From NCBI RefSeq assembly GCF_000188055.2, contig NZ_AEUZ02000001.1, positions 820,001-884,000 on the forward strand: DNA of 64,000 nt, written 5' to 3'. Under the pieces are notes generated by a model that saw only the letters and a list, made by a program, of their open reading frames with translations, made no database searches and was not told the DNA's origin. Made by a program: the position numbers and the translations under genes. This DNA is from Streptococcus urinalis 2285-97. GTDB lineage: Bacteria; Bacillota; Bacilli; Lactobacillales; Streptococcaceae. This document shows positions 3,476 through 19,491 of the stretch, piece by piece (the stretch's first letter is position 1; every line of letters starts with the position of its first letter).

Positions 3476-3478
3476 TAA

Positions 3479-3593: not shown

Positions 3594-3638
3594 ATTTATT
3601 TCAAAACAGGTATAATATTGGTAAAAGGAGTACATAAT

Positions 3639-4676
3639 TTGAGTAAGAATAGATTACATTTAAATGTAGAGCCATTTTTCACAGAAAAACTTTATCAATA
3701 TATTTTTGAAATGGATCAATGGTCAGCAATTAATTTATCTTTTTATATCGATAATACCGCTGTTTCTCGTATAAAATTAAATAAGTCCTCATTATGTCCA
3801 GATGCTGATAATGGTTCTTTTTACAATAAAGTACATAATATTTCCAGAGACTTCAAAGTTATTCATTTAAATAAGATAAATATCTTAAATGAGGACTATT
3901 ATCACCAAGGGATAATGACCTCAATGGTTTCTTTTCTATTTCTTAAATTATTGACGTGTACAGAATTTATAGATATAGATTTTGAAGTACAGCTAGTAAA
4001 TATCTCAGATTTATCAAAGTTAAGTGAGCCATACGGAATTTATAATAAATTTAAAAACAACGTGTATAGTAGGGTATTAAGAAAAAATCAAGGGAACTTG
4101 TATTATCAGCCATTGCTGAAAGAAAATCGGTTGGAAGATATTAAGTATTATACGGAATTGTTTTTGGAAAAGGGAAATATTATTTATGAACGAATGCCTA
4201 AAGATTTCTTTGAGAAATACAAAAATAAAACTGCTAAACTTGAAGAAATAGAAAGAAACTTTCTTAATCTCGAAACTTATTTTTTCCAAGTAAAAGAACA
4301 GTCCTTAAAAGTTAAGCTTAGGTTAATGGTTAGAAAGAGTTACTTAAATACGGTAAGTCAAATTTTTCCAAATAAGAAAGCAATAACATTTGGAAATAAA
4401 ACTTTTTTTAAAATCAAAACTATTAATGATGGTAGAAAATTTATCTCAGAAGTTTTATTAACTTATTTAAGAAATAATTACGAATATGAATCTAATTATT
4501 CCATGTTTGATGAAGATGACTATAGGTATGATATTAATATCTTCAGAGGAGATTTTTATAAGGGTTATTATGGTTATGATGAATTCAGGATTAATATTGG
4601 AAGCGATAGACTTATAGGGAAGTTTATTTGCTGCGATACAACCAATTTAAAACCTAAAAAAATCGCTTTTAGATAA
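3639..4676 (+). CDS. Unknown protein of the element, about 345 residues
   Basis: I do not recognise the family. The reading frame opens further upstream (TTG 3618), but AAAGGAG at 3624-3630 points to TTG 3639 as the start, giving MSKNRLHLNVEPFF. A TATAAT at 3611-3616 just upstream may drive it. The protein looks soluble, with no signal peptide or clear membrane segment. It is rich in Lys, Asn, Tyr and Phe, has a charged, probably helical middle (about residues 190-235), and ends in a Tyr- and Asp-rich part (about 290-330). The coding sequence is more AT-rich than the chromosomal genes of the window, in keeping with the accessory region. It stands alone between two terminators and may be cargo. 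Confidence 0.7.
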   Translation: MSKNRLHLNVEPFFTEKLYQYIFEMDQWSAINLSFYIDNTAVSRIKLNKSSLCPDADNGSFYNKVHNISRDFKVIHLNKINILNEDYYHQGIMTSMVSFLFLKLLTCTEFIDIDFEVQLVNISDLSKLSEPYGIYNKFKNNVYSRVLRKNQGNLYYQPLLKENRLEDIKYYTELFLEKGNIIYERMPKDFFEKYKNKTAKLEEIERNFLNLETYFFQVKEQSLKVKLRLMVRKSYLNTVSQIFPNKKAITFGNKTFFKIKTINDGRKFISEVLLTYLRNNYEYESNYSMFDEDDYRYDINIFRGDFYKGYYGYDEFRINIGSDRLIGKFICCDTTNLKPKKIAFR

Positions 4677-4700
4677 AAACGATTTAATGTTAAAGCATTG

Positions 4701-4730
4701 CTATGGCGTATATTATACCATAGTTTTTTT
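4701..4730 (+). terminator. Terminator after the unknown gene
   Basis: CTATGG (4701-4706) pairs with CCATAG (4718-4723), followed by seven T residues. It lies just before the first CCCTTTAATGC box. Confidence 0.75.
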
Positions 4731-4735
4731 ATTTT

Positions 4736-4771
4736 CCCTTTAATGCATTGTCGTTTTTTATCCTTTAAACT
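4736..4771 (+). promoter_or_regulatory. Conjugation box 1 (CCCTTTAATGC) with -10 for the coupling-protein operon
   Basis: CCCTTTAATGC at 4736-4746 is followed exactly 30 nt from its first base by TAAACT (4766-4771), a weak -10. The same box and spacing recur at 8553 and 10979. There is no consensus -35, so the box sits where an activator or an alternative -35 contact would lie. It also shares TTATCC just before the -10 with box 2. Confidence 0.6.
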
Positions 4772-4794
4772 TGATAAAAAGAAAGGAAAGAAAT

Positions 4795-5073
4795 ATGACG
4801 AAAACTATTGATCCAGATGAATTAATTGCAGAATCTTTTCAAATGGAAAATTATATCATGCAAAGATCTCATTATAAACATAACTATTCCCCGATTTTAA
4901 GAGATATTGATACTCAACTATCACATTATCTTTCTTACTATAGGGATATCTCAGTACAACTACAGTTTCAAATATTCTTGTATTCACGTTTTTTTGCTAA
5001 AAAACTAACTTTAAAAGGGATAGATATAAAAAAGCATGATGATGGAGGGGGATATGAAAAAAATACAGCATAA
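4795..5073 (+). CDS. Small unknown protein before the coupling protein
   Basis: The 92-residue protein starts at ATG 4795, preceded by AGAAAGGAAAG. It is polar, with an N-terminal acidic part (TIDPDELIAESFQ) and a Tyr/His/Gln-rich middle; a short hydrophobic patch (LQFQIFLYSRFF, about 65-76) might touch a membrane but is too polar for a clear transmembrane segment. Its last 20 bases overlap the start of the coupling-protein gene, so the two are translationally coupled and probably work together. I do not recognise the family. A small partner of the coupling protein or of the relaxosome is a guess from position only. Confidence 0.65.
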   Translation: MTKTIDPDELIAESFQMENYIMQRSHYKHNYSPILRDIDTQLSHYLSYYRDISVQLQFQIFLYSRFFAKKLTLKGIDIKKHDDGGGYEKNTA

Positions 5074-7948
5074 GCATAATGACTACTTTAATTGGTTATT
5101 GAATTTACTTAAAAAGCTTTGCTCTATAGTTTTCCTTATTTTATCAAATATAGTGATAAGGCTTGTTCATTTATTGCCATGGGTATCAAGAGGCCGAGTT
5201 CGTTTTGAAAAAGAGGCAGAGCCTATATTCTATTTCAAAACCTATAAAAGTTTTACGGTAATGGGATTATTATTTAGCTTGATTGCATTTTCTCTAACAA
5301 ACTATCTAGTTACCATTTTAAGAGATTCTATTAATTATTGTTACTTAACCATTACTTCGCAAAACTTGATTTCATTTCCTTTTGAGAGTTTATTGTTAAA
5401 AAATCTCTTTAACTATCATGTATTTAGTATAGCTCCAATCTTTGCTTGGCCAATATTCTTTATAGGTCTATTCATTGCCTGGCGTTCAGCCTGGGTTAAT
5501 TTTGAGCAATACCGAAATTATAATTTTAATGAAGAAGGTGATGATCGTTTTGCGACTGTGAAAGAAATTCACCAGCAATATAAAAAGGTTGCTAACAAAC
5601 AAAAAGTGTTTCCAGGCGATGGTGGAATTCCTGTTTTACATGAGACAAAATCTAATTTAGTAGGCTTCACTCTGGAAACACAGATTTTGTGGCAAAATAG
5701 GAAATACAGTCATCTTGTCACAAATGCTCAAAAAGTGTTAGGAATGCAATCAACTCCTTCAGGATATTATTATATTGAAGATGCTGCTACTAACACATTA
5801 GGTATTGGTATGACCCGTTCTGGTAAAGGCGAAGGGTTTATCACTGAGACCATAGACATTAATAGTCGTGCTGAAAATCAACCTTCAATGATTATTGGTG
5901 ATCCCAAAGGAGAACATTACCAATCTTCTTACAAGACTATGCGAAAAAGAGGAATGGACGTAGAAGTACTATCTTTTCAAAATATGGATTGGTCCATGTC
6001 CTACGATCCACTTGCACTAGCAATAGATTCTGCTAGACGTGGCTACTATGAAAAGACTCAAACTCGAATAAATGCAGTATCTGAAGCTATCTATCGAAAA
6101 ACAAAACCTGGACAAGGTAATGGAACTGCCATTTATTTTGAGAATAGCTCGATTTCTCTTTTTAATGCCATTGCAATGGCTTTAGTAGACCGTGCAAATG
6201 AAGCTTTTCAAAATGGTGAAGAAGATGCTTGGGATACAGTTACCGTGAGAAATATTGCTAAATTCTTAACAGATTTAGGTTCTGAAGAAGTTTTTGTGGA
6301 TGAGTTAGGCGAGGTTGTCGAAGCCCCTGAAAAAGATGATAGAATTAAAGTTAAATCTAAGCTTACTGTTTATTTTGATAATTTACGAAAAATTAATCAA
6401 GAACAATTTTCAAAATTTAGGGAAATGGCAGATATCAATTTTAGGGCCTCTGATTTTGCATCAGAAGAAACTAAAGGGAATGTCTATTCATCTATGATGA
6501 CAGGTATTAATCTGTTCTTACAAGACAATATCGCTAAATTAACATCTAAAAATTCAATTGATTTAGAGTCAGTTGGTTTTCCACGCCGATTGTCAATCAA
6601 ATTTCGTTCAAATAGTCATGTTCAGCTACAAAATGATTTTGCTCACAGAACCGCTAAGGTAAGTATATTTAGTGAAAGAAAGTGGGGTAAGACATCTAAA
6701 AAAGTCACTCATGTTAAAGAAGCAACGGCTTTAATTGATGCAGAAGGGTATTTGACTTATGTTATTGAACCTAAGTTACCAAATGAATTTACGATTATCA
6801 TTGATTTTAATCATCCGAATAATGATAACTTTGCATTAAGTGGAGTTAAATACACTCTTCAGGGGAAGAAAATTTATAGAAAAAATAATGATATGATAAT
6901 TCTTGATCAGTACACAAATAAAGCAATATTAGATTATGTTGATATTCAAATAATTGATAAACCTCAGACTAGTTTATTACAAGAATCCGATATTGAAATG
7001 ATCTATTCGGATAATCCCAAAATTATTTACCTGGTAACACCACCAAACCGAACAGAGTATAATGCTTTGATTTCCTTGTTTTTGGATCAACTCTTTAATG
7101 CTAATTATGAATTGGCTTTGTCGAATGGACGAAAATGTGTCAATAGAATTCTGCATGTTTTGGATGAGTTTACTAATATTCCTGAGGTTCCTCATATGGA
7201 TACTAAGATTTCAATAGGTTTGGGTCAAAACATTTTATATTGTCTTTGGATTCAAAACTTAGAACAGTTAACCGAAAAGTATGGGAAAAATACAAGTGCG
7301 ACAATTAAAGATAACTGTTCCTTAAAAGTTTATATTAAGTCGACGTCACCTGAAACAAATAAGAGTATTAGTGGGGACTTGGGTACTAGAACGATTACGA
7401 AACGACGAAAATCTGGTAATATACTTGATGAAGCCAATCCAAATGTTTCATTTGAGGGTAAACGTCAAGAATTACTGACCCCAACACAACTAGGAAAACT
7501 TCAAGAAGGTGAGGCTGTTATTCTAAGAGGGGTAAAAGGAAGAGACCTATCTGGCCATAAAATCACAACAGACCCTATATTCCTTCATGAGAAGACAAGT
7601 CTTCCCTATCGATATATGTTCTTACAAGAAGAATTTGACCATAGTATGACACTTGCGGATATTCCAGTTGACAGTCCACATCGAAATCTTGATTTACAAG
7701 ATATTGCCGTGGAAGCAAAAAGTACATTTGATAATATTATTGATTGGCGAAGACGACTGACAAGTAAGATAGCTACAAGTTCTGGTCGACCAAAATTAGC
7801 AGTACGTATGAAACCTAATCAATTAAAGACTGCAGCTCCCTTTGATTCTCCAGAAGAAGTCATAAAAGCTACTGTGAATGCTACTTTGAACCCCTATGAT
7901 AATGTAATAGATTATGATGAGGACCTTTTTGTAGATGATGTAATTTAG
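5054..7948 (+). CDS. VirD4/TraG-type conjugative coupling ATPase
   Basis: The 964-residue protein starts at ATG 5054 after GGAGGGGG; an earlier ATG at 5036 is less likely. The N-terminus carries two or three membrane segments (about residues 20-40, 65-90, 115-145). The NTPase domain shows Walker A GMTRSGKGE (lysine 258) and Walker B VLDEF (D704, E705), with the intervening DPKGEHY typical of VirD4 proteins. Such proteins form a hexamer at the inner side of the membrane and pass the relaxase-DNA complex to the secretion channel. At 964 residues it is longer than the usual 550-750; an insertion between about 520 and 660 of unknown role accounts for this. It is first of the secretion genes and probably shares a promoter with the small gene before it. 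Confidence 0.92.
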   Translation: MKKIQHKHNDYFNWLLNLLKKLCSIVFLILSNIVIRLVHLLPWVSRGRVRFEKEAEPIFYFKTYKSFTVMGLLFSLIAFSLTNYLVTILRDSINYCYLTITSQNLISFPFESLLLKNLFNYHVFSIAPIFAWPIFFIGLFIAWRSAWVNFEQYRNYNFNEEGDDRFATVKEIHQQYKKVANKQKVFPGDGGIPVLHETKSNLVGFTLETQILWQNRKYSHLVTNAQKVLGMQSTPSGYYYIEDAATNTLGIGMTRSGKGEGFITETIDINSRAENQPSMIIGDPKGEHYQSSYKTMRKRGMDVEVLSFQNMDWSMSYDPLALAIDSARRGYYEKTQTRINAVSEAIYRKTKPGQGNGTAIYFENSSISLFNAIAMALVDRANEAFQNGEEDAWDTVTVRNIAKFLTDLGSEEVFVDELGEVVEAPEKDDRIKVKSKLTVYFDNLRKINQEQFSKFREMADINFRASDFASEETKGNVYSSMMTGINLFLQDNIAKLTSKNSIDLESVGFPRRLSIKFRSNSHVQLQNDFAHRTAKVSIFSERKWGKTSKKVTHVKEATALIDAEGYLTYVIEPKLPNEFTIIIDFNHPNNDNFALSGVKYTLQGKKIYRKNNDMIILDQYTNKAILDYVDIQIIDKPQTSLLQESDIEMIYSDNPKIIYLVTPPNRTEYNALISLFLDQLFNANYELALSNGRKCVNRILHVLDEFTNIPEVPHMDTKISIGLGQNILYCLWIQNLEQLTEKYGKNTSATIKDNCSLKVYIKSTSPETNKSISGDLGTRTITKRRKSGNILDEANPNVSFEGKRQELLTPTQLGKLQEGEAVILRGVKGRDLSGHKITTDPIFLHEKTSLPYRYMFLQEEFDHSMTLADIPVDSPHRNLDLQDIAVEAKSTFDNIIDWRRRLTSKIATSSGRPKLAVRMKPNQLKTAAPFDSPEEVIKATVNATLNPYDNVIDYDEDLFVDDVI

Positions 7949-7953
7949 AGTAA

Positions 7954-7987
7954 ATACATAAACATGTATATAAACATGTTTATGTAT
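7954..7987. promoter_or_regulatory. Perfect 14-bp inverted repeat, candidate operator of the lipoprotein gene
   Basis: ATACATAAACATGT (7954-7967) and its exact reverse complement (7974-7987) flank a 6-base spacer. The right arm ends on the first base of TTGCTT (7987-7992), the -35 box of the lipoprotein promoter. The word ACATAAACATGTATATA (7956-7972) is found again, base for base, at 17134-17150 in the partition cassette. A DNA-binding dimer here would block RNA polymerase. It may also act as a weak terminator for the coupling-protein gene. Confidence 0.65.
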
Positions 7988-8015
7988 TGCTTTTAGAACT
8001 GTTATTTGTTATAAT
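7987..8015 (+). promoter_or_regulatory. Promoter of the lipoprotein gene
   Basis: TTGCTT (7987-7992) and TATAAT (8010-8015) are 17 bp apart, and an AAGGAGAAG ribosome site precedes ATG 8040. The -35 box touches the inverted repeat. Confidence 0.75.
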
Positions 8016-8039
8016 AAGCTCAAGAAAAGGAGAAGCCAT

Positions 8040-8516
8040 ATGAAATTCAAAAAAATATTAGGGATAACTATTCTATCAGTACTCAGTATCTTCTTAGTAG
8101 CTTGTGGTCAAAAAACTCCAGAAAACGTCGAAAAAACAGAATTAAAAAAAGAATATATCGGAACTTCTAATCATTCAGGATATGATAATCCATTTGATGA
8201 AGGAACTTATACTTTAACTTTTAATAAATCTGAAAAAACTGTCTCAAACTCTAATAGGGACGAAAAGGTTTATTATGAAATAGTTCCTGACAAAAAGGTC
8301 CCCAAAAAATATCTTTCAATATATGAAGATAAAGCTAAGGGAAAAGATCACTTCTTTATCAACGTTGGTTATCAAAAAGATAAAATATGGGGGAAAGTTG
8401 GCGATCAAATGTATTGCGTAATATTAACTGAAGGTGGTAAAAAGATTCAAATTTTGGAATTTGAAACGGGCTATTCATCTGATGGATATTATAATTTTAT
8501 TGGGAAAGCAGAATAA
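8040..8516 (+). CDS. Small lipoprotein inside the conjugation region
   Basis: The 158-residue protein has a lipoprotein signal peptide: KFKK, a hydrophobic core, and the lipobox LVAC with cysteine 22. The mature part is Lys- and Tyr-rich, lacks further membrane segments and looks like a small beta-rich extracellular domain; I do not recognise a family. It has its own promoter, candidate operator and terminator, so it is a separate unit between the coupling protein and the VirB6-like gene. Lipoproteins in this setting can be channel parts or entry-exclusion proteins that stop redundant transfer. That role is inference from position only. Confidence 0.8.
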   Translation: MKFKKILGITILSVLSIFLVACGQKTPENVEKTELKKEYIGTSNHSGYDNPFDEGTYTLTFNKSEKTVSNSNRDEKVYYEIVPDKKVPKKYLSIYEDKAKGKDHFFINVGYQKDKIWGKVGDQMYCVILTEGGKKIQILEFETGYSSDGYYNFIGKAE

Positions 8517-8523
8517 ATAATTA

Positions 8524-8548
8524 AAGCCTCTACTGTAGAGGCTTTTTT
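8524..8548 (+). terminator. Terminator after the lipoprotein gene
   Basis: AAGCCTCT (8524-8531) pairs with AGAGGCTT (8537-8544), followed by a T run. Confidence 0.9.
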
Positions 8549-8552
8549 CTTA

Positions 8553-8588
8553 CCCTTTAATGCACCTAATTAAATTATCCCTTATAGT
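8553..8588 (+). promoter_or_regulatory. Conjugation box 2 (CCCTTTAATGC) with -10 for the VirB6-like gene
   Basis: The box lies at 8553-8563 and TATAGT at 8583-8588, again 30 nt from box start to -10 start. It follows the lipoprotein terminator by 4 bases and precedes TTG 8618. Confidence 0.65.
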
Positions 8589-8617
8589 GATGAAAATAAG
8601 GAAAGCAGGTGTAATTA

Positions 8618-10666
8618 TTGGAATTTAATACATATTCTGATGTTGTCAAAAGTATCACAAAAGAATTTTGGGATCTTAATGGCGCTACGAATGGAAATAT
8701 AACCGGGGATAACGGAAAAAAGCTAGCCGATTTTTATTTATATTGGGGAAACTATCTTGAACCAACTCCGGCATTTTTAGCTTACCTCATGCAGCTTGTA
8801 GGAGGTATCGTTAAGGCCTTATATCTAATTTGTGTAAGTTTGGAACATGTTTTTAATAATATGTTTAAAGCATTTGGGTTATTTGGCTATTTAGGAGATC
8901 AGACAACTCTTTTTGGAAAATTGTTTTTTGGTTTTCAAGTTTTAGGAACAACTCTTTTTACGCTCATATTAGTAGTTAGTGCTATTACGGGTGTATTTTC
9001 AAAACCAGTAAAATATAAACATGTCATCACTAATTTTTTATTAGTAACTCTTGTGACCGCTGTTTTGCCTCTGGCCCTAACGACTATTTCTCAAACAGTC
9101 GCTCAAGATGCCCAATCAATTCAGACAATGTCAACTGGTGACTCAAAAGAAAATTATTCCTCCTTGGCAATACAACCAATGAAAAATAATGTGGTTGATG
9201 TCAAAGTATTAATGGACAATGACTTTAATAAAGAGTTATTCCCGTTGGATAGTTTTGGTTTTATTAAACCATTAAAAGAAGGTTCTACTGCAGTCAATAA
9301 TATAACGGATGATACGAAAAAAAGAGATACAACAAACTTTGCAACTAAAATAGATTTTTCTGCAATGTATGGAGTATCTAATGAACAGTTATTAAAAGAT
9401 TTGGAAAAGAAAAAGGAAGGTACGAAAGGACTTTTCCTTCATAAGCTAAATACAAATCAGGATGGTGTTGAAACAATAAATACTCATCGAGTAGTCGGTG
9501 GGCTAAATGCCTTTGAACCTGTTTATCTTCGTTATAAAGTTAACTGGATAGGTATGATTGCTCAGTACCTTATCTTGATATCACTATTCATTGTCATGTC
9601 AATTAAGTTTGTTAAATCCGTTTTTGATATTTTTATTGAATCACTTATATCTCCCATTCAAGGGTATAGTTCCCTCAACTCAAAAAAATACAAGGAATTA
9701 TTACGAACAATAGGAGGAGGTCTTGCAGGTATTTTCTTTGAAATCGTCATTATGCGAATTACTTTGGAAATTTGTAGGGATCTCCCAACCTTATCTGTAA
9801 CAGGTATTTCAAAACTTTCTGGAGGCTTCTTTGATGGTCTCAACATGTGGGAACAATGTATTGCTGCATGTGTTGTCTATATTGCTTTATTTTTATCTGC
9901 AATGCAAGGTGTAACTATGATTGAACGTTGGCTTGGGGTTTCAACTGGTCATAACGAGACTGCACAACAATTGATAGGTGCTATGATGATGGGAAATGCT
10001 TTTGCGACAGGAGCTGGAGCTCTTGGCTCTGGGGCTTTGGCTCTTGCGACAGGAGGAACATCATTAGCTGCACAAGCTCCAGGAGCTATTGCAAGTGCTG
10101 GTAAACATGTTGCTAATAGTTTTGCGAATACTGCTGGTGGACTAAAAGGTATCTCTGACTCTATTAAAGATCAAGGCTTTGGCAATACTGTAAAAGGTGG
10201 GGTATCAAATGCTGTTGATCTTGCGACACTTATGGGTAATAAAGCTGGAGATAAAGTCGGCGGTGCAATGGATTCCTTAGATCAGAAAGCACAAGATGCT
10301 CATAGCTCGACCTATAATGCTTTGAAAAATAATGCTACAGTACCTGAGCCTGGCTGGGAGTCAGAAAACTTTGGACTAACTGGAGGAGAATATACACTTA
10401 ATCCGAGTCATAATAATTATGGTGAAGATTTCTTCCCATCAGGAGGTGTTAGCGACCCTTCAGAGACTACAAGTCACTCAGTGGATACTACAGCACCAAA
10501 AGCACCAAAAATCGAACAGAAACAATCTCATCAGTCTACAAGTGGTTCCGAAATCAAGCGTTCCTTACAACAAATGAATTACATGCAACAACAAAGTCAA
10601 CAGGCTGCTCAAAGAATGCAACAACCAAGTAGTGTAAAAGGAGTGGAAATTGATGAGGAAGAGTAG
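8618..10666 (+). CDS. VirB6/TrbL-like polytopic membrane protein of the secretion channel
   Basis: The 682-residue protein starts at TTG 8618 with AGGTG before it. Hydrophobic segments are seen at about 60-85, 105-130, 140-155, 310-335, 365-385 and 425-445, with a large outward or inward loop between about 160 and 300. The C-terminal third (about 450-682) is soluble, first Ala/Gly-rich, then Pro/Ser/Thr- and Gln-rich (MQQQSQQAAQRMQQ). This layout fits VirB6-type proteins of Gram-positive type IV systems, which line the DNA path in the membrane. The family call rests on topology and neighbours rather than a diagnostic motif. The BRCT gene follows 9 bp later in the same unit. Confidence 0.75.
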   Translation: MEFNTYSDVVKSITKEFWDLNGATNGNITGDNGKKLADFYLYWGNYLEPTPAFLAYLMQLVGGIVKALYLICVSLEHVFNNMFKAFGLFGYLGDQTTLFGKLFFGFQVLGTTLFTLILVVSAITGVFSKPVKYKHVITNFLLVTLVTAVLPLALTTISQTVAQDAQSIQTMSTGDSKENYSSLAIQPMKNNVVDVKVLMDNDFNKELFPLDSFGFIKPLKEGSTAVNNITDDTKKRDTTNFATKIDFSAMYGVSNEQLLKDLEKKKEGTKGLFLHKLNTNQDGVETINTHRVVGGLNAFEPVYLRYKVNWIGMIAQYLILISLFIVMSIKFVKSVFDIFIESLISPIQGYSSLNSKKYKELLRTIGGGLAGIFFEIVIMRITLEICRDLPTLSVTGISKLSGGFFDGLNMWEQCIAACVVYIALFLSAMQGVTMIERWLGVSTGHNETAQQLIGAMMMGNAFATGAGALGSGALALATGGTSLAAQAPGAIASAGKHVANSFANTAGGLKGISDSIKDQGFGNTVKGGVSNAVDLATLMGNKAGDKVGGAMDSLDQKAQDAHSSTYNALKNNATVPEPGWESENFGLTGGEYTLNPSHNNYGEDFFPSGGVSDPSETTSHSVDTTAPKAPKIEQKQSHQSTSGSEIKRSLQQMNYMQQQSQQAAQRMQQPSSVKGVEIDEEE

Positions 10667-10675
10667 GTCATTATC

Positions 10676-10954
10676 ATGGATTTTCAAGGAAAAGTAGTGG
10701 CAATAACTGGGAGCCTCAGACCCTTAGAAAGGTCAGAAGTTATTGAATTCATTAACGTGAAAGGTGGAACCTATCAAAACTATGTTTCTTCTCAGACAGA
10801 TGTATTAATAATTGGCCACAGACAATTGACACTTTTTGAATTAGATCACTACTCAAAAAAATATGAAAAAGCAAAAATGTTAATCAATAATGGTCAGAAC
10901 ATTACCCTTATCGGTGAAGAAGACTTCTTTACATTTTTTCAAGAGTCCCTTTAG
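10676..10954 (+). CDS. Free-standing BRCT-domain protein
   Basis: The 92 residues are essentially one BRCT domain. FQGKVVAITGSL, the following amphipathic helix, GGTYQNYVSSQTDVLIIG and the end segment line up with the C-terminal BRCT of LigA in this same window ([25 protein letters not shown]). Bacterial BRCT domains occur mostly in NAD-dependent ligase and RFC- or exonuclease-like proteins and bind DNA ends or phosphorylated partners. There is no catalytic domain attached. It follows the VirB6-like gene with a 9-bp gap and its stop codon lies inside the terminator hairpin. Its job in conjugation is unknown; handling of nicked or incoming DNA is a guess. Confidence 0.85.
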   Translation: MDFQGKVVAITGSLRPLERSEVIEFINVKGGTYQNYVSSQTDVLIIGHRQLTLFELDHYSKKYEKAKMLINNGQNITLIGEEDFFTFFQESL

Positions 10955-10967
10955 GGGACTCTTTTTT
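10941..10967 (+). terminator. Terminator overlapping the BRCT stop codon
   Basis: AGAGTCCC (10942-10949) pairs with GGGACTCT (10955-10962), then a T run. The TAG stop is in the loop. Confidence 0.9.
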
Positions 10968-10978
10968 ATGTCAACTTA

Positions 10979-11014
10979 CCCTTTAATGCGGTCCTACAAT
11001 CTATATCATAGAAT
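10979..11014 (+). promoter_or_regulatory. Conjugation box 3 (CCCTTTAATGC) with -10 for the main secretion operon
   Basis: The box lies at 10979-10989 and TAGAAT at 11009-11014, 30 nt from start to start as in boxes 1 and 2. It heads the six-gene unit 11045-16161. Confidence 0.65.
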
Positions 11015-11044
11015 AGATTTACTAACATAAAGGAGAAAAAACAT

Positions 11045-11347
11045 ATGAATGAAAAGTATGGTGTTCCAAGAGATATCTACGCTAAGGTAAAGATCATTGG
11101 TTTGTTTATTTCAGATATCGTATTAATTGGTGGTTCAGCTCTAATTGGAATAACTATAGCGCCAAAAATATTTCCGACGGATATGTGGCTTCAGATGTTC
11201 GCTTTTATTATATTGACTCCCATAATCACTTTGTTTTTGGTCTTGCCTAACAATGGTGGCAAGAGGAACTGGCAATGTATGTATCTTTATTTTCGCAGAA
11301 AAAGAAGACGATATATCAGTATTAATCCTAAATATGGAGGAAACTAA
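11045..11347 (+). CDS. VirB3/PrgI-like small membrane protein
   Basis: The 100-residue protein begins YGVPRDIYAKVKI, typical of the PrgI-type start, and has two membrane segments (about 17-38 and 48-68) with a basic C-terminus (FRRKRRRY). It comes directly before the TrsD-like and VirB4-like genes, the usual place of the VirB3-type subunit, which anchors the VirB4 ATPase at the membrane. AAAGGAG precedes ATG 11045. The family placement rests on size, topology and position. Confidence 0.7.
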   Translation: MNEKYGVPRDIYAKVKIIGLFISDIVLIGGSALIGITIAPKIFPTDMWLQMFAFIILTPIITLFLVLPNNGGKRNWQCMYLYFRRKRRRYISINPKYGGN

Positions 11348-11349
11348 TA

Positions 11350-11997
11350 ATGGCATTTAAACGAAAAGAAACAGTAATCCCCAGTAGCACACTTCGTATT
11401 TCAAAAGAAAAGAAGAAGTTATATAATCAAGACTTTTTTGATCTGACGTCAAGTGTTGAATTACTTGATGTAAAATCTATTCTAAATACGAAGGATGAAC
11501 ATATCTCACTTGTAGATTATGGTTATCTTCAGTTGTTAGAAATACCAGGAAAAGACTTGGGTTCACTAAGCCATAATGAAATCTTACGAACCATTTATAA
11601 TTTTGAAAAATGGCTCACAGATTTTAATAGTAATATCCAAATTGAGACAACCACATTACCAACCAACACTGATAGTCAGATTGCTGACATGAAACGTTGG
11701 CTGTCAATCGTACGAGAAAAGAAATCTTTAGCTGAGATTGGAAGTCGTTATTATAATCAATTAGATGATAGAGAAGCACGTTTATTGGATAGTATTCAAA
11801 CGGAAGAAAATATCCAAAAAGAGATCTATAATGCTGAGTTTATTCTTTGGCTCTTTGCGCCAACGACAACGGAGTTGGATGACCTTGTGAGAAGGGCTCA
11901 AAGCTATGGTAATAATGATTTTGTCCCACAAAAGATTTCAAGGCGTAAAAAAGAACAAATTCTTAAGCAATATAACAACATGAATGAAAAAATTTAG
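11350..11997 (+). CDS. TrsD/TraD-like conjugation protein
   Basis: The 215-residue soluble protein has a segment HISLVDYGYLQLLEIPG (about 57-73) like the start of VirB4 N-terminal domains, then a long helical, charged part and a basic end (SRRKKEQILKQ). In staphylococcal pGO1 and enterococcal pIP501 systems a protein of about 210-230 residues (TrsD/TraD) sits directly before the VirB4-type TrsE/TraE, exactly as here. The start lies 2 bp after the previous stop, with GGAGG just upstream. Its mechanism is not known to me. An alternative reading is a detached VirB4 N-terminal domain. Confidence 0.7.
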   Translation: MAFKRKETVIPSSTLRISKEKKKLYNQDFFDLTSSVELLDVKSILNTKDEHISLVDYGYLQLLEIPGKDLGSLSHNEILRTIYNFEKWLTDFNSNIQIETTTLPTNTDSQIADMKRWLSIVREKKSLAEIGSRYYNQLDDREARLLDSIQTEENIQKEIYNAEFILWLFAPTTTELDDLVRRAQSYGNNDFVPQKISRRKKEQILKQYNNMNEKI

Positions 11998-12005
11998 GAG
12001 ATAAT

Positions 12006-13955
12006 ATGCCAGATTTATCAAAGAAAAAGCAACGTCAATTAAGAGCTGACGGTTACGACTTAGAATTTATTAGTAAAATACAACCACAAGGGAATGTTGA
12101 TTTTGAAAAGCATGATCGTTATTGGACAAGCGGTGATGGGTACCATACAGTGCTTCACTATTATGAATACCCTTCCAAAGATTTAGATCGTTTTTGGTTA
12201 TCCGACTTACTACAAATACCAGGAACTAGGGCTTTCTTAGCCAGTTATCGGGAAAACAATTCGGTTTTAAAAAGTGTTATTGCTGACTCCATTGAGGAGA
12301 AGTCTACACGTATAACAGGTAATAGTAAAATTACTGCTAACCAAAAAGAACTTGATGAGATTCAAGATCTCCAAGAATTAAATAGAGATATTACCAAAAA
12401 GAATATTACGATGCTTGGCTTCTATATTCGAGTCTTTGTCTCTGCATCAACCAAAGAGCAATTATTCAAAAAAGTTGATGAAATAAAGGATAAAACATCA
12501 AGCTATAAATCAACAATTCTTTCAGGTGAATTAGATTTTGAGTATCACTCTACCTTTATCCCCGCAGAGTATCAAGTTGATCAGTTAAATCATCGACGTG
12601 GGATGCCTATAAGAGCTCATGATCTAGCAGGAGGATATTTCTTTAATCATACTAAATTGGAAGATGAAAGAGGCTCCTACATGGGGTGGACGCCCACTGG
12701 AGGTGCTGTTAATTTCAATTTTCTTGAAAGAGATGATCGACGTACACGTTCTTTTATGCTTTTGTCCGGAAATCCGAAAATGGGGCAAAGAACATTTCTC
12801 TTAAAGCATACAGATGCCCTTTATGCTAAAGGAAATTTTATACGTAATTTTGATGCAAACGGAAGTTTTACAAATCAGACCAATCAACAATTTGGCCAAG
12901 TGTTAGACCTTTCAGGTGGTAATAATAGGATTAATATCTTACAGATTTTTCCTACAGTAACAGAACAAAACGGAATAGATGTTGATGAAGAGAAATCTTA
13001 TAAACTTCATATTCAAAAGTTAAAAAACTTCCTAAAACTTTTGAATGAAGATATCACTAGCGATGACTTAACAACCTTTGGTCGAGTTCTCAATGAATTT
13101 TATATTGAGAATGATTTATGGTTTAGAAATCCTACTCTACATAAACATGAGTTAAGAGCAACAAAATTAAACAGGGAAGAATATCCAATTATTTCAGATT
13201 TGGTTCTTTATTTAGCAGATTGGAAAGGACGCCTGGAGAGACAGAAAACTCCAAATAAAATTGAGCTAAAAGCTATTAACCGTATTTATAATACTTTTGA
13301 TGAACTAATTACCTCTAATGGAGATATGTTTGAAGGGACGACTGAATTCAAAGACATCTCTTCAGAACAGGTCGTTACTTTTAATTTTGCGGGTCTAAAA
13401 TCTTCCCCAAATCTCCTTAACGCTCAGATATTATCTGTTTTATCACTTGTTTCAGCTGATATTTTAAATAACAGTAAAAAATGTCAACAACTTCGACGAG
13501 AAAATCCATCTCTTTCTGAAATGGATATGTTGCATTATATCGTTAATATCAGTGATGCTCAAACACTTATCAATCCAAAGTTTGAAAGTAGTGTTACATT
13601 ACTTGCTGATATCATCGACTCAATGGGGGATAACTATGCAGGTGTTGTACTATCTGTTAATTCTTTACAAGGATTATTGTTTGAAGAAGGAGCAGGTTCC
13701 CATAAAGACCCCTATATTTTAGCTGTGAAGCGAATATTCGGATTGATGCAGTATCGTGTTTTTGCTCAAACCGACGAAACGAGTATTCCTTTACTAGCAA
13801 ATGCTTTAGCAGGATCAATGAATCAATCAGAATTGGAGACATTACCTAGATTATCTCGTGGTCAACTTTTTATGAATATCGCAGGTGTCGGTAATATTGT
13901 TTTTAATCAACAGCTACTTCAGAGTGAAAATGTACGTTATGGTGGAATAGAATAG
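12006..13955 (+). CDS. VirB4-like ATPase homologue with degenerate nucleotide-binding motifs
   Basis: The 649 residues match VirB4/TrsE proteins in length and order: an N-terminal domain with GDGYHTVLHYYEYP, a central CagE/TrbE-like region, and a C-terminal RecA-like domain. Where Walker A should read GxxGxGKT, the sequence is GNPKMGQRT (255-263), so the catalytic lysine is Gln 261 and the next residue Arg 262. Where Walker B should read DE, it reads SDAQ (D517, A518). VirB4 normally powers channel assembly; this copy probably does not hydrolyse ATP. No other VirB4 is in the window. The gene lies in the six-gene operon, 8 bp after its neighbour. Confidence 0.85.
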   Translation: MPDLSKKKQRQLRADGYDLEFISKIQPQGNVDFEKHDRYWTSGDGYHTVLHYYEYPSKDLDRFWLSDLLQIPGTRAFLASYRENNSVLKSVIADSIEEKSTRITGNSKITANQKELDEIQDLQELNRDITKKNITMLGFYIRVFVSASTKEQLFKKVDEIKDKTSSYKSTILSGELDFEYHSTFIPAEYQVDQLNHRRGMPIRAHDLAGGYFFNHTKLEDERGSYMGWTPTGGAVNFNFLERDDRRTRSFMLLSGNPKMGQRTFLLKHTDALYAKGNFIRNFDANGSFTNQTNQQFGQVLDLSGGNNRINILQIFPTVTEQNGIDVDEEKSYKLHIQKLKNFLKLLNEDITSDDLTTFGRVLNEFYIENDLWFRNPTLHKHELRATKLNREEYPIISDLVLYLADWKGRLERQKTPNKIELKAINRIYNTFDELITSNGDMFEGTTEFKDISSEQVVTFNFAGLKSSPNLLNAQILSVLSLVSADILNNSKKCQQLRRENPSLSEMDMLHYIVNISDAQTLINPKFESSVTLLADIIDSMGDNYAGVVLSVNSLQGLLFEEGAGSHKDPYILAVKRIFGLMQYRVFAQTDETSIPLLANALAGSMNQSELETLPRLSRGQLFMNIAGVGNIVFNQQLLQSENVRYGGIE

Positions 13956-13967
13956 TGGAGAAAAAAC

Positions 13968-14234
13968 ATGAAAAATCAAAATTTAAATGATAACAAGTTA
14001 GGCTACTTCGAGAGAAAAAAACAAGCGGTTAAGGAATATATTCTAATCCGAAAAATACGTGCTAAACAAGAACGTGAGTACTTTGCTTCTGAAGGAGATT
14101 CTGATCCTAAAAGGTTAGAGGCTCAGCGACAACGTGACATTGAGTTTCTTCAGAGCTTAAAAAAACTAGGTGTTTGTGTGATTATCTCCTTAATATTTTA
14201 TGCTATTTTAAGAACCATCCTCGGCCTTTGGTAG
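13968..14234 (+). CDS. Small bitopic membrane protein of the secretion operon
   Basis: The 88-residue protein is highly charged for its first 65 residues (many Lys, Arg, Glu and Gln) and ends with one hydrophobic segment (LGVCVIISLIFYAILRTILGLW). A tail-anchored protein with a cytoplasmic helical domain is the simplest topology. It sits between the VirB4-like and wall-hydrolase genes, the place of TraF in pIP501-type operons, but no family motif is visible. GTGGAGAA precedes ATG 13968. Confidence 0.7.
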   Translation: MKNQNLNDNKLGYFERKKQAVKEYILIRKIRAKQEREYFASEGDSDPKRLEAQRQRDIEFLQSLKKLGVCVIISLIFYAILRTILGLW

Positions 14235-14248
14235 AAGAGAGGTAGCAA

Positions 14249-15571
14249 GTGAAAAAAGTTAGTCAGTTTAAACTTTTTCTTGGACTCTCTGGCATTTTCT
14301 CAATTTTTGTTGTCATAGTGATGTTAGGAGCTGCATTAACAGGGGCAATATCCAATAAGCCTAAAAGTGATTGTACGCCTGAAACAGCTGTTACAGCCCC
14401 TTCAAACGGTTCTGTCTCTTCAGCTAATACTTCGATAGATTCGTTTGTAAAAGAACATCAAGATGCTTATATTAAGTCCTGGAAGGTAGGAGGATTTTTA
14501 CCTTCAGCATCAATTGCTCAAACGATGATTGAAGTCTCATTTTCATCAAGTGTTCCTTCATTTGCACAAGCTCATAATATGGGTGGTGTTAAATGGTCTG
14601 GAGTAAGTTCATATACTAAGACTATTGAACTTTTTGGATCTGATGCTGTTAAAAGTAGTGGACCTGGAACTAGTGTTGGAGACAATACTGGAGGGGGATA
14701 TACTTGGTTTAGAGATTTTGATGCAGGAATAGTCGGTAAAGCTGAATTTATGAGCCGTCAATCTCTCTACAATAAAGCAATTAATAATATTGATGGTGTC
14801 AGCACTCTAAGTGCGATTGCAGATGGTGGATGGGCAACTGATCCAAGTTATAAAGTCAAACTCATTGAGATCTATAATTCTTTAGGAAAGAAATATAAAT
14901 GGTTAGATGAAAAGGCCATTGCGGAATATGGTGAGAAACCAGTAGATATAAATAAGTTAGATAAACCATCAAGTCAAACGTCAAGTGAAGATTCTATTTC
15001 TACTGTTAATGAAGTTGATCAAGAATGTAATGAAGAGAGTAGTACAGAGTCTGCTAGCGACGGAACGGGCTTAGTACCTTCAGATGCTAAAGCATGGGGT
15101 TATAAACCTGATGAACTACCAGCTAGTTTAAAAAAATATGCTATTGATCCAACAAAACTTGGACTTAATTATGGTGGCGGAGCAGGCTGGGTTGAACACT
15201 CAGGACAATGTGTTGATTTAACTGAGAGTCTAGGTAATAAAATTTGGGGAGGAAGTGGCATTACTGTAGCGGATGGTTGGCAACAAGCTTATGCCTGGGC
15301 CAGAAAGTTTGGGAATGATGTTAAACACAAAGCTAAGGCAGGAGCAATTTTTTCTACGGGTATCTCAGCACCAGGTCATACAGGAATCGTATGTCATGTT
15401 TTCCAAGATGGTTCAGTTCTTGTTATTGAACAAAACACTCCATTATCAGGAATTACTTATTATGGTAAAAGAGATACTTGGAATTATAGAATATTTTCTG
15501 TATCACAGCAAAAAGCGGATAATATGAAGTTTGCCTATCCTGATAATAAAAATCCTAAACTCGGTAATTAG
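14249..15571 (+). CDS. VirB1-like bifunctional peptidoglycan hydrolase (glucosaminidase + CHAP)
   Basis: The 440-residue protein starts at GTG 14249 after AGAGAGG. An N-terminal membrane segment (about 8-32) anchors it outside the cell. Residues about 65-220 resemble the glucosaminidase/FlgJ fold (PSASIAQTMIE, NMGGVKW, YTWFRDFDAG). A Ser/Glu-rich linker leads to a C-terminal CHAP amidase/endopeptidase with cysteine 321 (GQCVDL), histidine 377 (PGHTGIV) and VIEQN. It cuts both glycan and peptide bonds to open the wall for the channel, as TraG of pIP501 and TcpG-type proteins do. It stays in the secretion operon with short gaps. Confidence 0.9.
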   Translation: MKKVSQFKLFLGLSGIFSIFVVIVMLGAALTGAISNKPKSDCTPETAVTAPSNGSVSSANTSIDSFVKEHQDAYIKSWKVGGFLPSASIAQTMIEVSFSSSVPSFAQAHNMGGVKWSGVSSYTKTIELFGSDAVKSSGPGTSVGDNTGGGYTWFRDFDAGIVGKAEFMSRQSLYNKAINNIDGVSTLSAIADGGWATDPSYKVKLIEIYNSLGKKYKWLDEKAIAEYGEKPVDINKLDKPSSQTSSEDSISTVNEVDQECNEESSTESASDGTGLVPSDAKAWGYKPDELPASLKKYAIDPTKLGLNYGGGAGWVEHSGQCVDLTESLGNKIWGGSGITVADGWQQAYAWARKFGNDVKHKAKAGAIFSTGISAPGHTGIVCHVFQDGSVLVIEQNTPLSGITYYGKRDTWNYRIFSVSQQKADNMKFAYPDNKNPKLGN

Positions 15572-15582
15572 AAAGGTAAAGC

Positions 15583-16161
15583 ATGTTAAATTGGATTAAA
15601 CAAAATAAAATTTTAACATTATTAACTCTTTTCTTGTTAGTAGCATCATTCTATGCTGTTTACAAGCAAATAGATAATTATAATCCACAAAGTAAAAAGC
15701 CAAAACACTTAGTGGTCAGAAAAAAAGGAGAAGATATGAAAGAGGAAACAACAAATGAAAAGAATTATCGTAAGGCAAAACTTAAACTAGAGCATCCTTA
15801 TAGCCCTGTAAAAGAAGATATAAGAGCTTCAGCCTTGCCGATTGTTGAGAGTGCACTAAGTACCATTCAGAAGTCTAAAAAGGTAACTGACACTACAGGG
15901 ACTTATGATAATCATTTATCGATGACTGATAATCCAATGATTCAAACAGTTGCAATTGCAATGCTTATTAACCACTATACTTACCAGGCAGATCGAATTG
16001 AGATTTTAGAATCAGATAGTGATGATGTGGTACAGGTTCTAATACCACTAACAAAACAAGGTGCTGATAATGTTTACTTTGTTGCAAATTATAATTTGAC
16101 TGTTCAGCAGTTACAGATTGCCGATTATGTCGGTGGACCTATTGGTGGTACATTTGGATAA
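15583..16161 (+). CDS. VirB8-like candidate, bitopic secretion protein
   Basis: The 192-residue protein has a short cytoplasmic start, one membrane segment (about 10-29) and an extracellular part of about 150 residues. The C-terminal half (IVESALSTIQ, then beta-rich YQADRIEILES and NVYFVANYNLTVQQLQI) could be the NTF2-like fold of VirB8/TcpC proteins, but this is a pattern judgement. It is the last gene before a terminator in the secretion operon. A VirB8-type scaffold is otherwise missing from the window, which supports the idea. Confidence 0.6.
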   Translation: MLNWIKQNKILTLLTLFLLVASFYAVYKQIDNYNPQSKKPKHLVVRKKGEDMKEETTNEKNYRKAKLKLEHPYSPVKEDIRASALPIVESALSTIQKSKKVTDTTGTYDNHLSMTDNPMIQTVAIAMLINHYTYQADRIEILESDSDDVVQVLIPLTKQGADNVYFVANYNLTVQQLQIADYVGGPIGGTFG

Positions 16162-16212: not shown

Positions 16213-16290
16213 ATATATACATATACATGTTTACAAACATATTTAATTGTGTTATCATGTATATAGATATAAACATATACATGTATATAA
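16213..16290. promoter_or_regulatory. Repeated ACATGTATAT-type sites and promoter in front of parA
   Basis: The stretch is packed with related words: ATACATGTTTACAAACAT, ATCATGTATATAG, ATAAACATATACATGTATAT. TTTACA (16230-16235) and TATCAT (16253-16258) form a 17-bp-spaced promoter inside it. Such arrays in front of parA genes are usually operator and centromere sites bound by the small partner protein. The same words recur at 17130-17151, within parA near 16602-16620, and at 7954-7987. Confidence 0.6.
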
Positions 16291-16309
16291 AATAGAAAGA
16301 GGATCTGCT

Positions 16310-17107
16310 ATGAAGATTATGAGTTTTGAAGCAATCAAAGGTGGTGTTGGTAAAACAACTTTAGCCTATAATTACGGTGAGTGGTTAGCTAGTCAAGGAA
16401 AGAAAGTATTATTCATTGATTTTGACTTTCAATGTAACCTGACTCAAACGTATAGAATTTATCAATCAGAAAATACAGTAGCTAATATCTTTGTAGGAGG
16501 TAAGGTGGATATTATTTCAATTAAAGAAAATATTGATCTAATACCTGGTTATATGAAATTAGATCGTATTGAAAAAGATCTTAGTCAAGATGAAAACAAA
16601 AACATGTATATGTATATGTGGTTAGATGATAACTATTACTCTCGTGATCTCGAAGCCTACGACTATATTATTTTTGATTGTAGACCAGATTTTTCAGTTG
16701 CGACAAAGAATGCGACTATTGTAAGTCACATAGTATGGAGCCCACTAACACCTAGTAAGTACGGATATGAAGCAAAATACAATATTGAAACACAGATGAA
16801 TGACTTAAAGGTAAAGGCCATTAATTTTTCAACTCGACAGAGTTATGTGACAGCAAAGTTAGTCTTTATTGCAAATATGGTTAAGCATAATACTAAATCA
16901 TCTCGTGAACTAATCAAAATTTTAGAAGAAGATGAAAATATTGATTTGATTATTCCCTACAAGGAACTATTTAATACGTCGACACTTGAATATTTACCAA
17001 TTTCGGATATGATGACTCTGAAGAAATACTCAGAGCATAAGAGTTTCTTTGATAAAATCAATAAAGTCTTTTCTCAGATGACTTCAACAATAGATAGATT
17101 AGTTTAA
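16310..17107 (+). CDS. ParA-type partition ATPase
   Basis: The 265-residue protein starts at ATG 16310 (AAAGAGG before it); the frame also opens upstream at 16247 without support. It shows the deviant Walker A of ParA/MinD proteins, KGGVGKTT (10-17), a Walker A' IDFDFQCNLTQ, and a Walker B YIIFDCRPD. ParA ATPases move or position plasmid-like DNA with a centromere-binding partner, here probably the 75-residue RHH protein 62 bp downstream. TnGBS elements carry plasmid-type maintenance genes because they replicate outside the chromosome during transfer. Confidence 0.9.
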   Translation: MKIMSFEAIKGGVGKTTLAYNYGEWLASQGKKVLFIDFDFQCNLTQTYRIYQSENTVANIFVGGKVDIISIKENIDLIPGYMKLDRIEKDLSQDENKNMYMYMWLDDNYYSRDLEAYDYIIFDCRPDFSVATKNATIVSHIVWSPLTPSKYGYEAKYNIETQMNDLKVKAINFSTRQSYVTAKLVFIANMVKHNTKSSRELIKILEEDENIDLIIPYKELFNTSTLEYLPISDMMTLKKYSEHKSFFDKINKVFSQMTSTIDRLV

Positions 17108-17117
17108 GGATTTGTGA

Positions 17118-17151
17118 TATAATATATTCATAAACATAAACATGTATATAT
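17118..17151 (+). promoter_or_regulatory. Extended -10 and operator-like site before the RHH gene
   Basis: TGATATAAT (TATAAT 17118-17123) is an extended -10. Directly downstream lies ATAAACATAAACATGTATATAT (within 17130-17151). Its 17-base part at 17134-17150 equals the site at 7956-7972. A protein bound here would sit at the start of transcription, as expected for autoregulation. Confidence 0.6.
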
Positions 17152-17169
17152 CTATGAAAGGAATTTAGT

Positions 17170-17397
17170 ATGGCTTTTATAAAAGATCAAAGTGAAATGA
17201 CCAAAACATTGAGAGAAACTCTCAATAAAGAAAATAAAACAAAAATTCAAAATGATGAAGAGGCATTATTTGAGAGAAAGAAAAATTATCAATTTATGTT
17301 GAAACCATCAAATAGGGAAAAGCTACGACAATTGGCGACTGAATCAGGTAAACGTTCAGACTCTGCATTCTTAGATGATTTAATTGAAAATCTATAA
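17170..17397 (+). CDS. Ribbon-helix-helix (CopG-like) DNA-binding protein, candidate ParB partner
   Basis: The 75-residue protein has a flexible charged N-terminus and a C-terminal KNYQFMLKPSNREKLRQLA...SDSAFLDDLIENL that fits a beta strand followed by two helices, the RHH layout. Such dimers bind short AT-rich repeats in the major groove. Its place directly after parA and the repeats around both genes suggest that it is the centromere-binding protein and repressor of the cassette. The RHH call comes from pattern and context; no close family is recognised. Confidence 0.65.
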   Translation: MAFIKDQSEMTKTLRETLNKENKTKIQNDEEALFERKKNYQFMLKPSNREKLRQLATESGKRSDSAFLDDLIENL

Positions 17398-17834: not shown

Positions 17835-19151
17835 ATGGAAGTCATTCAAGAGTCATCTATTCGGGAACAATTTAAGTCTAATAACAATACCTGGTTTCAA
17901 AATTTCATTAATGAGTATGATAATAAGATGGAAGCAACAATGAAAAACAAAGGCTATAGATGCATTCATTCCATGGAACGAACTGTCATTTTCACATTTG
18001 GAGAATTTACATTCAGACGTAAGCGCTGGAAAAAAGGAAGTAAGTGGGTAGTTCCTGTTGATACTATGTTAGGTCTCGAGAAAAATACACGTTACTCACT
18101 TGAATTTATGTACCAAGTAGCTTGCCTATCTACGCTAATGTCCTATGATATGGTTGTCAAAGCAATTGATTTAGTTTACCAAGTATCAATAACAAAGCCT
18201 TCAGTAGTTAAAGCAGTTAAAATGTGTGGAGAGTTGATCAATGAAAAAAATAATTATCGCTACTTTAATGAGTACAAACCTAAAGAGTCAATTGATATCC
18301 TGTATATTGAGGGAGACGGTGTAATGGTCAAGGCTCGAGAAAATGGTAGTGATAATAAAAATTTTGATTTGTCTCATTTCGTTTTACACACTGGTAGTTA
18401 TGAAGAATATAAAAATAGATACAAATTAGATAATAAAAAAGAGTTTATTTCTATGAAGAATTCCTCAGCAAGGGAACAGTTAATTGATTATATCTACAAT
18501 ACTTATCAAATAACTACAAAGACAATTTTAGTGACAAATTCAGACGGTGGTCATGGTTATACTCCGTACATTTTTAAAGAGCTTGCGAAAGACTTGAATG
18601 TGAAGTATCATGAGCACTTCTGGGACGAATACCATGTTAATAAATTAGTCAAAGAATACTATAAAGAAATGCCTATCACCCTTCTTGAAAAAGTTTTTAA
18701 GGCCTTAAAAAAACACTCTAAGAGTGAGTTAGAGATGGTCCTAGATACTACAGAAAGCATTCTTACAAGTGAAGTCGAGGAAGAAAAATTTTCGATATTC
18801 AAAAGAAAACTCCTAAATAACTTTCAATATCTTAAGCCTGCTAAGTTTAGAGGATTAAAGCCACAAGGAATTGGCATTATGGAAAGTCAGCATCGAAAAG
18901 TAACCTATAGAATGAAAAAACGGGGGATGTACTGGAGCAAGAGGGGAGCTAGTACAATGAGTCAAATGATTGTGTTGTCTTACGAAGGAAAACTTCATGA
19001 TCTTTTTTTTGGTCCTTGGAGAAAAGAATATGAGCCGTATAAAGAAATTACTAATTTTTCAGCTGCGGATATTTTTAATTATTCTTCAGATGAAAGAAAT
19101 TATCAATTGCCTAAGTTAGCTTTAAATGCGACATATCGATATAAAAAGTAA
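17835..19151 (+). CDS. ISLre2-like (UPF0236) DDE transposase of the element
   Basis: The 438-residue protein has the UPF0236/ISLre2 pattern: an N-terminal region with GEFTFRRKRW, then IEGDG with aspartate 161, TNSDGGHGY with aspartate 237, and a late glutamate, probably E350 in GIMESQHRK, followed by SKRGASTMSQM. These fit the DDE triad of the Mutator superfamily (IS256, ISLre2). TnGBS elements use such a transposase in place of an integrase. It is full length for the family and uninterrupted, so it may be active. It is the last gene of the element. The assignment of E350 is tentative. Confidence 0.85.
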   Translation: MEVIQESSIREQFKSNNNTWFQNFINEYDNKMEATMKNKGYRCIHSMERTVIFTFGEFTFRRKRWKKGSKWVVPVDTMLGLEKNTRYSLEFMYQVACLSTLMSYDMVVKAIDLVYQVSITKPSVVKAVKMCGELINEKNNYRYFNEYKPKESIDILYIEGDGVMVKARENGSDNKNFDLSHFVLHTGSYEEYKNRYKLDNKKEFISMKNSSAREQLIDYIYNTYQITTKTILVTNSDGGHGYTPYIFKELAKDLNVKYHEHFWDEYHVNKLVKEYYKEMPITLLEKVFKALKKHSKSELEMVLDTTESILTSEVEEEKFSIFKRKLLNNFQYLKPAKFRGLKPQGIGIMESQHRKVTYRMKKRGMYWSKRGASTMSQMIVLSYEGKLHDLFFGPWRKEYEPYKEITNFSAADIFNYSSDERNYQLPKLALNATYRYKK

Positions 19152-19410: not shown

Positions 19411-19491
19411 AAAAAGAAACTCGGTAGGTTCTCCTTAATAGATAATTGACGATTCTAAAAAATTCTTCCACATACCGTTTAAAATTAAGAG

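Follow-up and report, generated by a model that had tools for sequence, protein, structure and literature searches.

Among conjugative elements, master-activator regulons are already known, as in the case of AcaCD of IncC, where one element-encoded activator drives many transfer promoters, and of SGI1, a satellite with activator-responsive type IV secretion system (T4SS) genes, including the VirB6 homolog TraG, plus its own related activator (PMC7826253, PMC5704250). The integrative and conjugative elements (ICEs) of the TnGBS family are known for a transposase of family PF06782, an insertion point 16 bp ahead of a sigma-A -35 and the association of conjugation and replication modules, and no transfer regulon or regulator is described in those parts of this literature that were covered (PMC3942029, PMC4701971). 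In the present work, a stretch of 64,000 nucleotides from the genome of Streptococcus urinalis 2285-97 (contig NZ_AEUZ02000001.1, positions 820,001 to 884,000), hereafter called the window, was considered. It begins within a TnGBS-family element in which short sequence boxes precede the transfer operons; judging from the comparison of related elements, these boxes are probably bound by an element-encoded factor, a protein of about 165 residues, that turns on the TnGBS transfer operons together. Like AcaCD and SGI1, such a system would place many transfer promoters under one activator carried by the element, whereas the host is here a streptococcus, the transposase is of the Mutator type and the box alphabet changes from element to element.

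The original prediction, made from the window alone, proposed that an 11-base word, CCCTTTAATGC, stood before three secretion operons as part of a private regulon. The word is indeed present at 4736, 8553 and 10979, always on the forward strand, and the window holds no other exact copy, with a chance expectation of 0.03 copies over both strands under a first-order Markov model, i.e., about one per thirty such windows. Ten 11-mers recur at least three times within positions 1-19475, of which CCCTTTAATGC alone combines the complete set of bases with a G+C count of four or more. The three promoters are as follows:

4732..4771, forward strand: boxed promoter P5 of the coupling-protein operon, with the box CCCTTTAATGC at 4736-4746, TTATC at 4758-4762 and the -10-like TAAACT at 4766-4771
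8549..8588, forward strand: boxed promoter P6 of the VirB6/BRCT operon, with the box at 8553-8563, TTATC at 8575-8579 and the -10-like TATAGT at 8583-8588
10975..11014, forward strand: boxed promoter P7 of the main channel operon (VirB3), with the box at 10979-10989, CTATA in place of TTATC at 11001-11005 and the -10-like TAGAAT at 11009-11014

Each hexamer (4766, 8583 and 11009) starts exactly 30 nt after the start of its box, and the start codons at 4795, 8618 and 11045 lie 48, 54 and 55 nt past the box end, within the 48-56 nt announced. The first two sites share TTATCC, as had been noticed, and a consensus -35 is absent from all three, the best match to TTGACA at a spacing of 16-18 nt being 2/6, 3/6 and 2/6 for sites 1, 2 and 3, respectively. 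A terminator had been described before each box, which is borne out for sites 2 and 3 by terminator-like hairpins at 8523-8545 and 10941-10963; for site 1 the scan listed none, even if a hairpin rich in A+T and followed by a run of T can be read there by eye.

The S. urinalis genome (G000) contains five exact copies of the box, namely the three of the window, one at 812095 where TAGACT once more starts at +30, and an intragenic one elsewhere at 512105. Together with variant boxes at the same +30 spacing, the element comprises seven boxed promoters, four of which lie to the left of the window:

G000:802884: boxed promoter of genes adjoining the relaxase, taken as mobilization-accessory
G000:808121: boxed promoter of an operon with an 86-residue product and a primase
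G000:812095: boxed promoter of the topoisomerase and a ClpB-like ATPase
G000:815743: boxed promoter of the VirB2 operon

The idea of a private regulon is supported by comparison, at a size larger than the three operons first proposed. Box scans of the element also agree with the statement that the lipoprotein and partition units lack the box, and they found none at the transposase unit either.

A search of 284 genomes of the genus with the coupling protein gave a match of any kind in 141, mostly to a short ATPase segment alone, and 36 further places with a long match, one of them a fragment (G126). In these relatives a common layout is found at orthologous operons with nearly fixed spacing, i.e., TTGT, a 12-nt box, 10 nt and TTATCNNTTANNNT. 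At least two filtered sites were present in 35 of the 36 related elements, the short fragment G126 having none; with the four additional promoters of the present element, the search for the box and its 30-nt spacing in the rest of the element and in related ones thus turned out positive, and the lack of conservation that would have spoken against a regulon did not materialise. In 36 elements, the present one included, 186 of the 197 promoter slots were retained by a filter on the -10 and on distance, two of them through a wrong choice of site. When the box alone was searched in ten elements, 55 matches were obtained, none of them on the strand opposite to transfer, with the -10 module at exactly +22 in 52 of them and ATATC, i.e., one mismatch, at that place in the remaining three. 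A strict composite motif yielded 66 matches in 29 of the 284 genomes, against 0 for its reversed control. Across 106 promoters from 18 non-redundant elements, agreement is strongest for TTGT, followed by CC (positions 1-2), TTA (5-7) and TTATCNNTTANNNT (23-36), the constancy of the last being partly by construction, as the -10 module belonged to the picking pattern. None of these 106 promoters exhibits the TGn of an extended -10; their best -35 match averages 2.43/6, no better than the 2.50 of 1080 random TANNNT sites, and does not exceed 3/6 in 103 of the 106.

What is conserved, then, is the position of the box and the -10 module, and not the letters of the box, which change between elements: CCCTTTAATGC here, CCGCTTAACGC, CCTCTTAACGC, TCCCTTAACGC, CCCTTTAACAAA, CCCATTAACAC, CCCGTTAGAGC or CATTTAAGCAC in others. 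Over 12 positions, the mean box mismatch within elements is 0.146 (282 pairs), compared with 0.344 for boxes of the same promoter in separate elements (771 pairs) and 0.342 for those of different promoters in separate elements (4512 pairs); re-dealing boxes among elements gave 0.329 +/- 0.010, and 0 of 1000 shuffles was as low as 0.146. Since boxes agree within elements and differ between them, it is the identity of the element, and not that of the operon, that sets the box, and for the same reason a factor encoded by the element most likely reads it. As a further indication, a genome taken as S. danieliae (G030) harbours two elements whose boxes differ, as do the two helix-turn-helix (HTH) segments of this genome, the division of its contigs between the two elements being partly inferred; as two boxes coexist in one host, the host does not appear to set the box.

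Sequence comparison designates as the best candidate for the box reader a protein of about 165 residues with an HTH-like C-terminus. Its gene, the first large one from the left end, lies outside the window (G000:C1:795562-796074; L006:15562-16074). The gene is found in 18 of the 20 elements with sufficient left sequence, and farther away in the genome in the other two (G122 and G128). Overall, the protein is present in 42 of the 284 genomes (once as a 30-residue fragment) and in 28 of the 29 genomes with the strict motif, the exception being a draft (G213). Its predicted model displays a long helix that ends in two short ones, at residues 114-120 and 125-131, in a segment that varies among elements. 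Against PHROGs, only a weak match to a family of unknown function was obtained (phrog_11084, E 0.2), and to no activator family. No boxed site occurs close upstream of the gene in the 37 loci scanned, some with little upstream sequence, and the switch itself therefore seems to be under other control. Public records list some copies as modification methylase Sau96I, a name for which no methylase signature was found in Pfam or NCBIfam. Of note, relatives of the protein outside Streptococcus occur beside a relaxase-sized gene in Ligilactobacillus salivarius and L. murinus (L182, L183).

The sharpest evidence for this reader comes from three elements (G156, G277 and G136) in which the HTH is changed to PLSYKQLIRGRKRSD, unlike in ten otherwise similar elements, and in which the box shifts as well. 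The G at box position -1 and the C at +1 are each found in 63 of 63 boxes of the ten elements and in 4 of 16 boxes of the three, with lesser shifts at other positions. Elements G156 and G277 are not separated from the ten by their coupling protein, VirB4, VirB6, VirB2, VirB3, topoisomerase or relaxase. The HTH of G136 had been predicted beforehand from its box and was found as predicted in 3 of 3 copies. Likewise, among six genomes tested, TTAGAGC boxes occur in exactly the two with a SYKKLRSDW HTH. The genome G126, which combines type-A boxes with a G196-type HTH, at first appeared as a counterexample, until TTAGAGC boxes, as a G196-type HTH predicts, were found on another of its contigs. In a genome taken as S. 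sobrinus (G200), a divergent HTH goes with the box CGGTAAATTTT at unchanged spacing. Over all elements compared, distances between 165-residue proteins correlate with distances between boxes (r 0.84); for the adjacent proteins of the left module this correlation is poor (Rep, 0.32).

Several observations weigh against the assignment. The protein matches no Pfam or NCBIfam family (in NCBIfam, at E up to 1 for 19 members), its AlphaFold model is of moderate confidence (pLDDT 78.6, pTM 0.45) and has no significant match in the PDB, and because no family or structure match was available the HTH was assigned by eye and from predicted helices. The Fisher value of the contrast between the three elements and the ten, 3.6e-11, is uncorrected for descent and may reflect a single event; for G136, where the coupling protein and VirB6 were compared, VirB6 is nearest to that of G277 and G156 (95 and 90% vs 83-89%), and two further G136 sites, outside the count of 16 and obtained with the strict pattern, in which a C at +1 is compulsory, do carry this C. 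For the type-A boxes of G126, no type-A factor was found in an 83%-complete assembly. In the distance comparison, VirB2, VirB6 and VirB3 track the box better than the whole 165-residue protein (r 0.93, 0.87 and 0.86 vs 0.84), and its N-terminal part does so better than the HTH (0.89 vs 0.67). Once the VirB4 distance is removed, the partial correlation of HTH and box falls to r 0.15, a value reached in 557 of 2000 permutations and thus not significant.

The higher correlations of VirB2, VirB6 and VirB3 show how far common descent alone goes, and several other conserved small proteins of the element carry no assigned function. These points leave some room for the same regulon with another reader, either some other protein of the element or a host factor partnered by an element protein. 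This seems unlikely: the sole other regulator-type match among the Pfam-scanned element proteins is a weak Rrf2 in Rep, and box tracking is poor for Rep as given above, for ParA (0.41) and for the ribbon-helix-helix-like accessory proteins (0.16), whereas the two elements with different boxes in one host genome speak against a host factor alone. It could also be that the 165-residue protein is itself a small sigma-like factor replacing the housekeeping sigma, with the box as its -35 and TTATCNNTTANNNT as its -10. Small sigma factors are close to it in size, it ends in an HTH-like segment, the sigma-A -35 and the extended -10 are both missing, and the constant TTATC upstream of the -10 is unusual. 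Still, no match to sigma region 2 or 4 was obtained in Pfam at E up to 1, nor for the 19 members compared with NCBIfam at the same threshold, the centres of box and -10 are about 27 nt apart, beyond the usual distance between -35 and -10, and the -10 itself resembles the sigma-A hexamer, all of which makes this explanation improbable.

The boxes might also be operators of a repressor holding the transfer operons off, as conservation of sequence alone gives no sign of regulation and as ImmR of ICEBs1 illustrates that a repressor can keep elements of such a general kind silent (PMC9956884, covered in part). However, with no TGn and a -35 at random level, the promoters should be weak unaided, and the box lies upstream of the -10, not over it; the weak -35 and the missing extended -10 lead us to infer activation, not repression, and a repressor, like a sigma-like factor, is given little credence. 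The 165-residue protein is regarded as a putative activator of the transfer promoters.

In S. agalactiae, six nucleotides on average separate the hexamer from the start site, according to the part of the source covered (PMC4448216). With a start site assumed about 6-7 nt after the hexamer, the box is placed at about -46 to -31. Such a position is that of a class II activator. A box in the -35 region combined with a -10 devoid of a working -35 is also seen with phage middle-promoter activators, e.g., T4 MotA; the present case differs by a box centre farther upstream, and no sequence relation to MotA is shown. The box would then be the binding site of an element-encoded transcription factor, the 165-residue protein, whose HTH-like C-terminus would read it while contact with RNA polymerase would be made by the conserved N-terminal part (or this part would contact the constant TTATC module, which lies at about -20 and may offer a second point of contact). 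The housekeeping sigma factor could thereby work on promoters that are too weak by themselves. Until this protein is made, the transfer genes would remain silent; thereafter, the coupling protein, the channel, the topoisomerase, the primase and parts of the relaxosome would be produced simultaneously, and the partition, transposase and lipoprotein units would use other promoters. Private box alphabets would prevent cross-activation of two elements residing in one cell.

Besides full elements, relaxase-less satellites of about 9.5-10.5 kb occur in three genomes:

G060:C1 from 407598, forward strand: satellite with GTAAGTGGTA-type inverted repeats at its ends
G060:C1 from 843382, reverse strand: satellite with the same type of inverted repeats at its ends
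G047:C1 from 1705471, reverse strand: satellite with the same type of inverted repeats at its ends
G114:C1 from 531739, forward strand: satellite with the same type of inverted repeats at its ends

They encode the 165-residue protein, Rep, two accessory proteins of the type neighbouring the relaxase, a lipoprotein, VirB6 and a Mutator-type transposase, and contain no match for relaxase, coupling protein or VirB4. In each of them, a box was found at the VirB6 promoter alone; in G060, this box, CCCCTTACTGC, is identical to those of P4 and P6 in the full element of the same genome. In the S. urinalis element, the lipoprotein gene (8040-8516), unboxed, directly precedes the boxed VirB6 gene (8618-10666), a pair kept in the satellites. 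YddJ and ConG of ICEBs1 form an exclusion pair. By analogy, the lipoprotein and VirB6 could possibly constitute an entry-exclusion pair. Islands of the GISul2 type, in the part of the source covered, are likewise relaxase-less and pair TrbK (exclusion) with TrbL (VirB6) (PMC5704250); the present satellites differ by having their own candidate regulator, Rep and a Mutator-type transposase. As a tentative extension, the 165-residue protein may be the first of a new family of master activators of conjugation, in which the segment that reads DNA and the boxes would co-evolve and insulate co-resident elements; satellites would tap the code to ride a full element, the exclusion specificity of which they would perhaps alter, as a streptococcal parallel to SGI1 and IncC.

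As a whole, the element spans G000:C1:795321-839475 (44 kb), its right end being at window position 19475. Its limits were set by comparison with the copy in G164, aligned blocks of which are 96-100% identical, and by terminal inverted repeats; a 9-bp direct repeat, CGTTTAAAA, borders it at both ends. The insertion point at 19475 is 16 bp upstream of a sigma-A -35 (TTGAAC at 19492), inside the 15-17 bp expected for the TnGBS family; this -35 is itself 17 nt from TACAAT at 19515. By this insertion site, its PF06782 transposase and its conjugation and replication genes, the element belongs to the TnGBS family. It also encodes a MobL relaxase, a topoisomerase, a VirB2-type pilin and a PriCT_1 replication-type protein; with respect to RepA_N, the conserved replication-type protein matched PriCT_1 in the part of the genes left of the window that was scanned. 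Within the window, the features of the element are:

4795..5073, forward strand: first gene of the P5 operon, 92 residues, no Pfam match, family in 36 of 37 elements
5036..7948, forward strand: coupling protein (VirD4/TraG type) of the P5 operon, PF02534 and PF12696
8040..8516, forward strand: small lipoprotein-like gene, unboxed unit, named from its N-terminus and the earlier reading
8618..10666, forward strand: VirB6-like protein of the P6 operon, named by the earlier reading and position, no Pfam match
10676..10954, forward strand: BRCT-domain protein of the P6 operon, PF00533
11045..11347, forward strand: first gene of the P7 operon, DUF5592 (PF17332), VirB3-like by position
11350..16161, forward strand: remaining P7 operon genes, five products, named by size, order, position or domain
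16247..17397, forward strand: ParA (PF13614) and small partner gene, unboxed unit
17835..19151, forward strand: Mutator-type transposase (UPF0236), unboxed unit, PF06782, E 2e-26
19451..19475, reverse strand: right terminal inverted repeat, partner at G000:C1:795321

The five further products of the P7 operon are (i) a 215-residue protein, (ii) a 649-residue protein, VirB4-like by size and order and without Pfam match, (iii) an 88-residue protein, (iv) a glucosaminidase/CHAP hydrolase (VirB1-like), and (v) a 192-residue protein, VirB8-like by position. The small BRCT-domain protein beside VirB6 (10676-10954) is present in 34 of 37 elements. A gene of 352 residues (3618-4676), located between SSB and the coupling operon, resembles an accessory insert; it has no Pfam match, and tblastn at E 1e-3 gave no match in any of the other 36 elements. 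An antigen I/II-type adhesin and an LPXTG-anchored protein are encoded between the VirB2 and coupling operons (window 329-2962; G000:C1:817310-819571).

The arrangement of the boxes is compatible with an activator acting on many transfer promoters, as AcaCD does. Unlike AcaCD, which belongs to the FlhDC family, the 165-residue protein matches no family searched, including FlhD/FlhC in Pfam at E up to 1. In the literature searched, mainly open-access and seen in part, a regulon, regulator or satellites of TnGBS are not described, and the TnGBS transfer switch proposed here was thus not previously described in these sources. If the proposal holds true, one small protein would control the conjugation of a whole family of elements, the strict motif of which occurs in 29 of the 284 sampled genomes of the genus, the natural pairs of box and HTH would provide a ready data set on the joint change of a transcription factor and its sites, and the box code would predict which elements and satellites can communicate in one cell.

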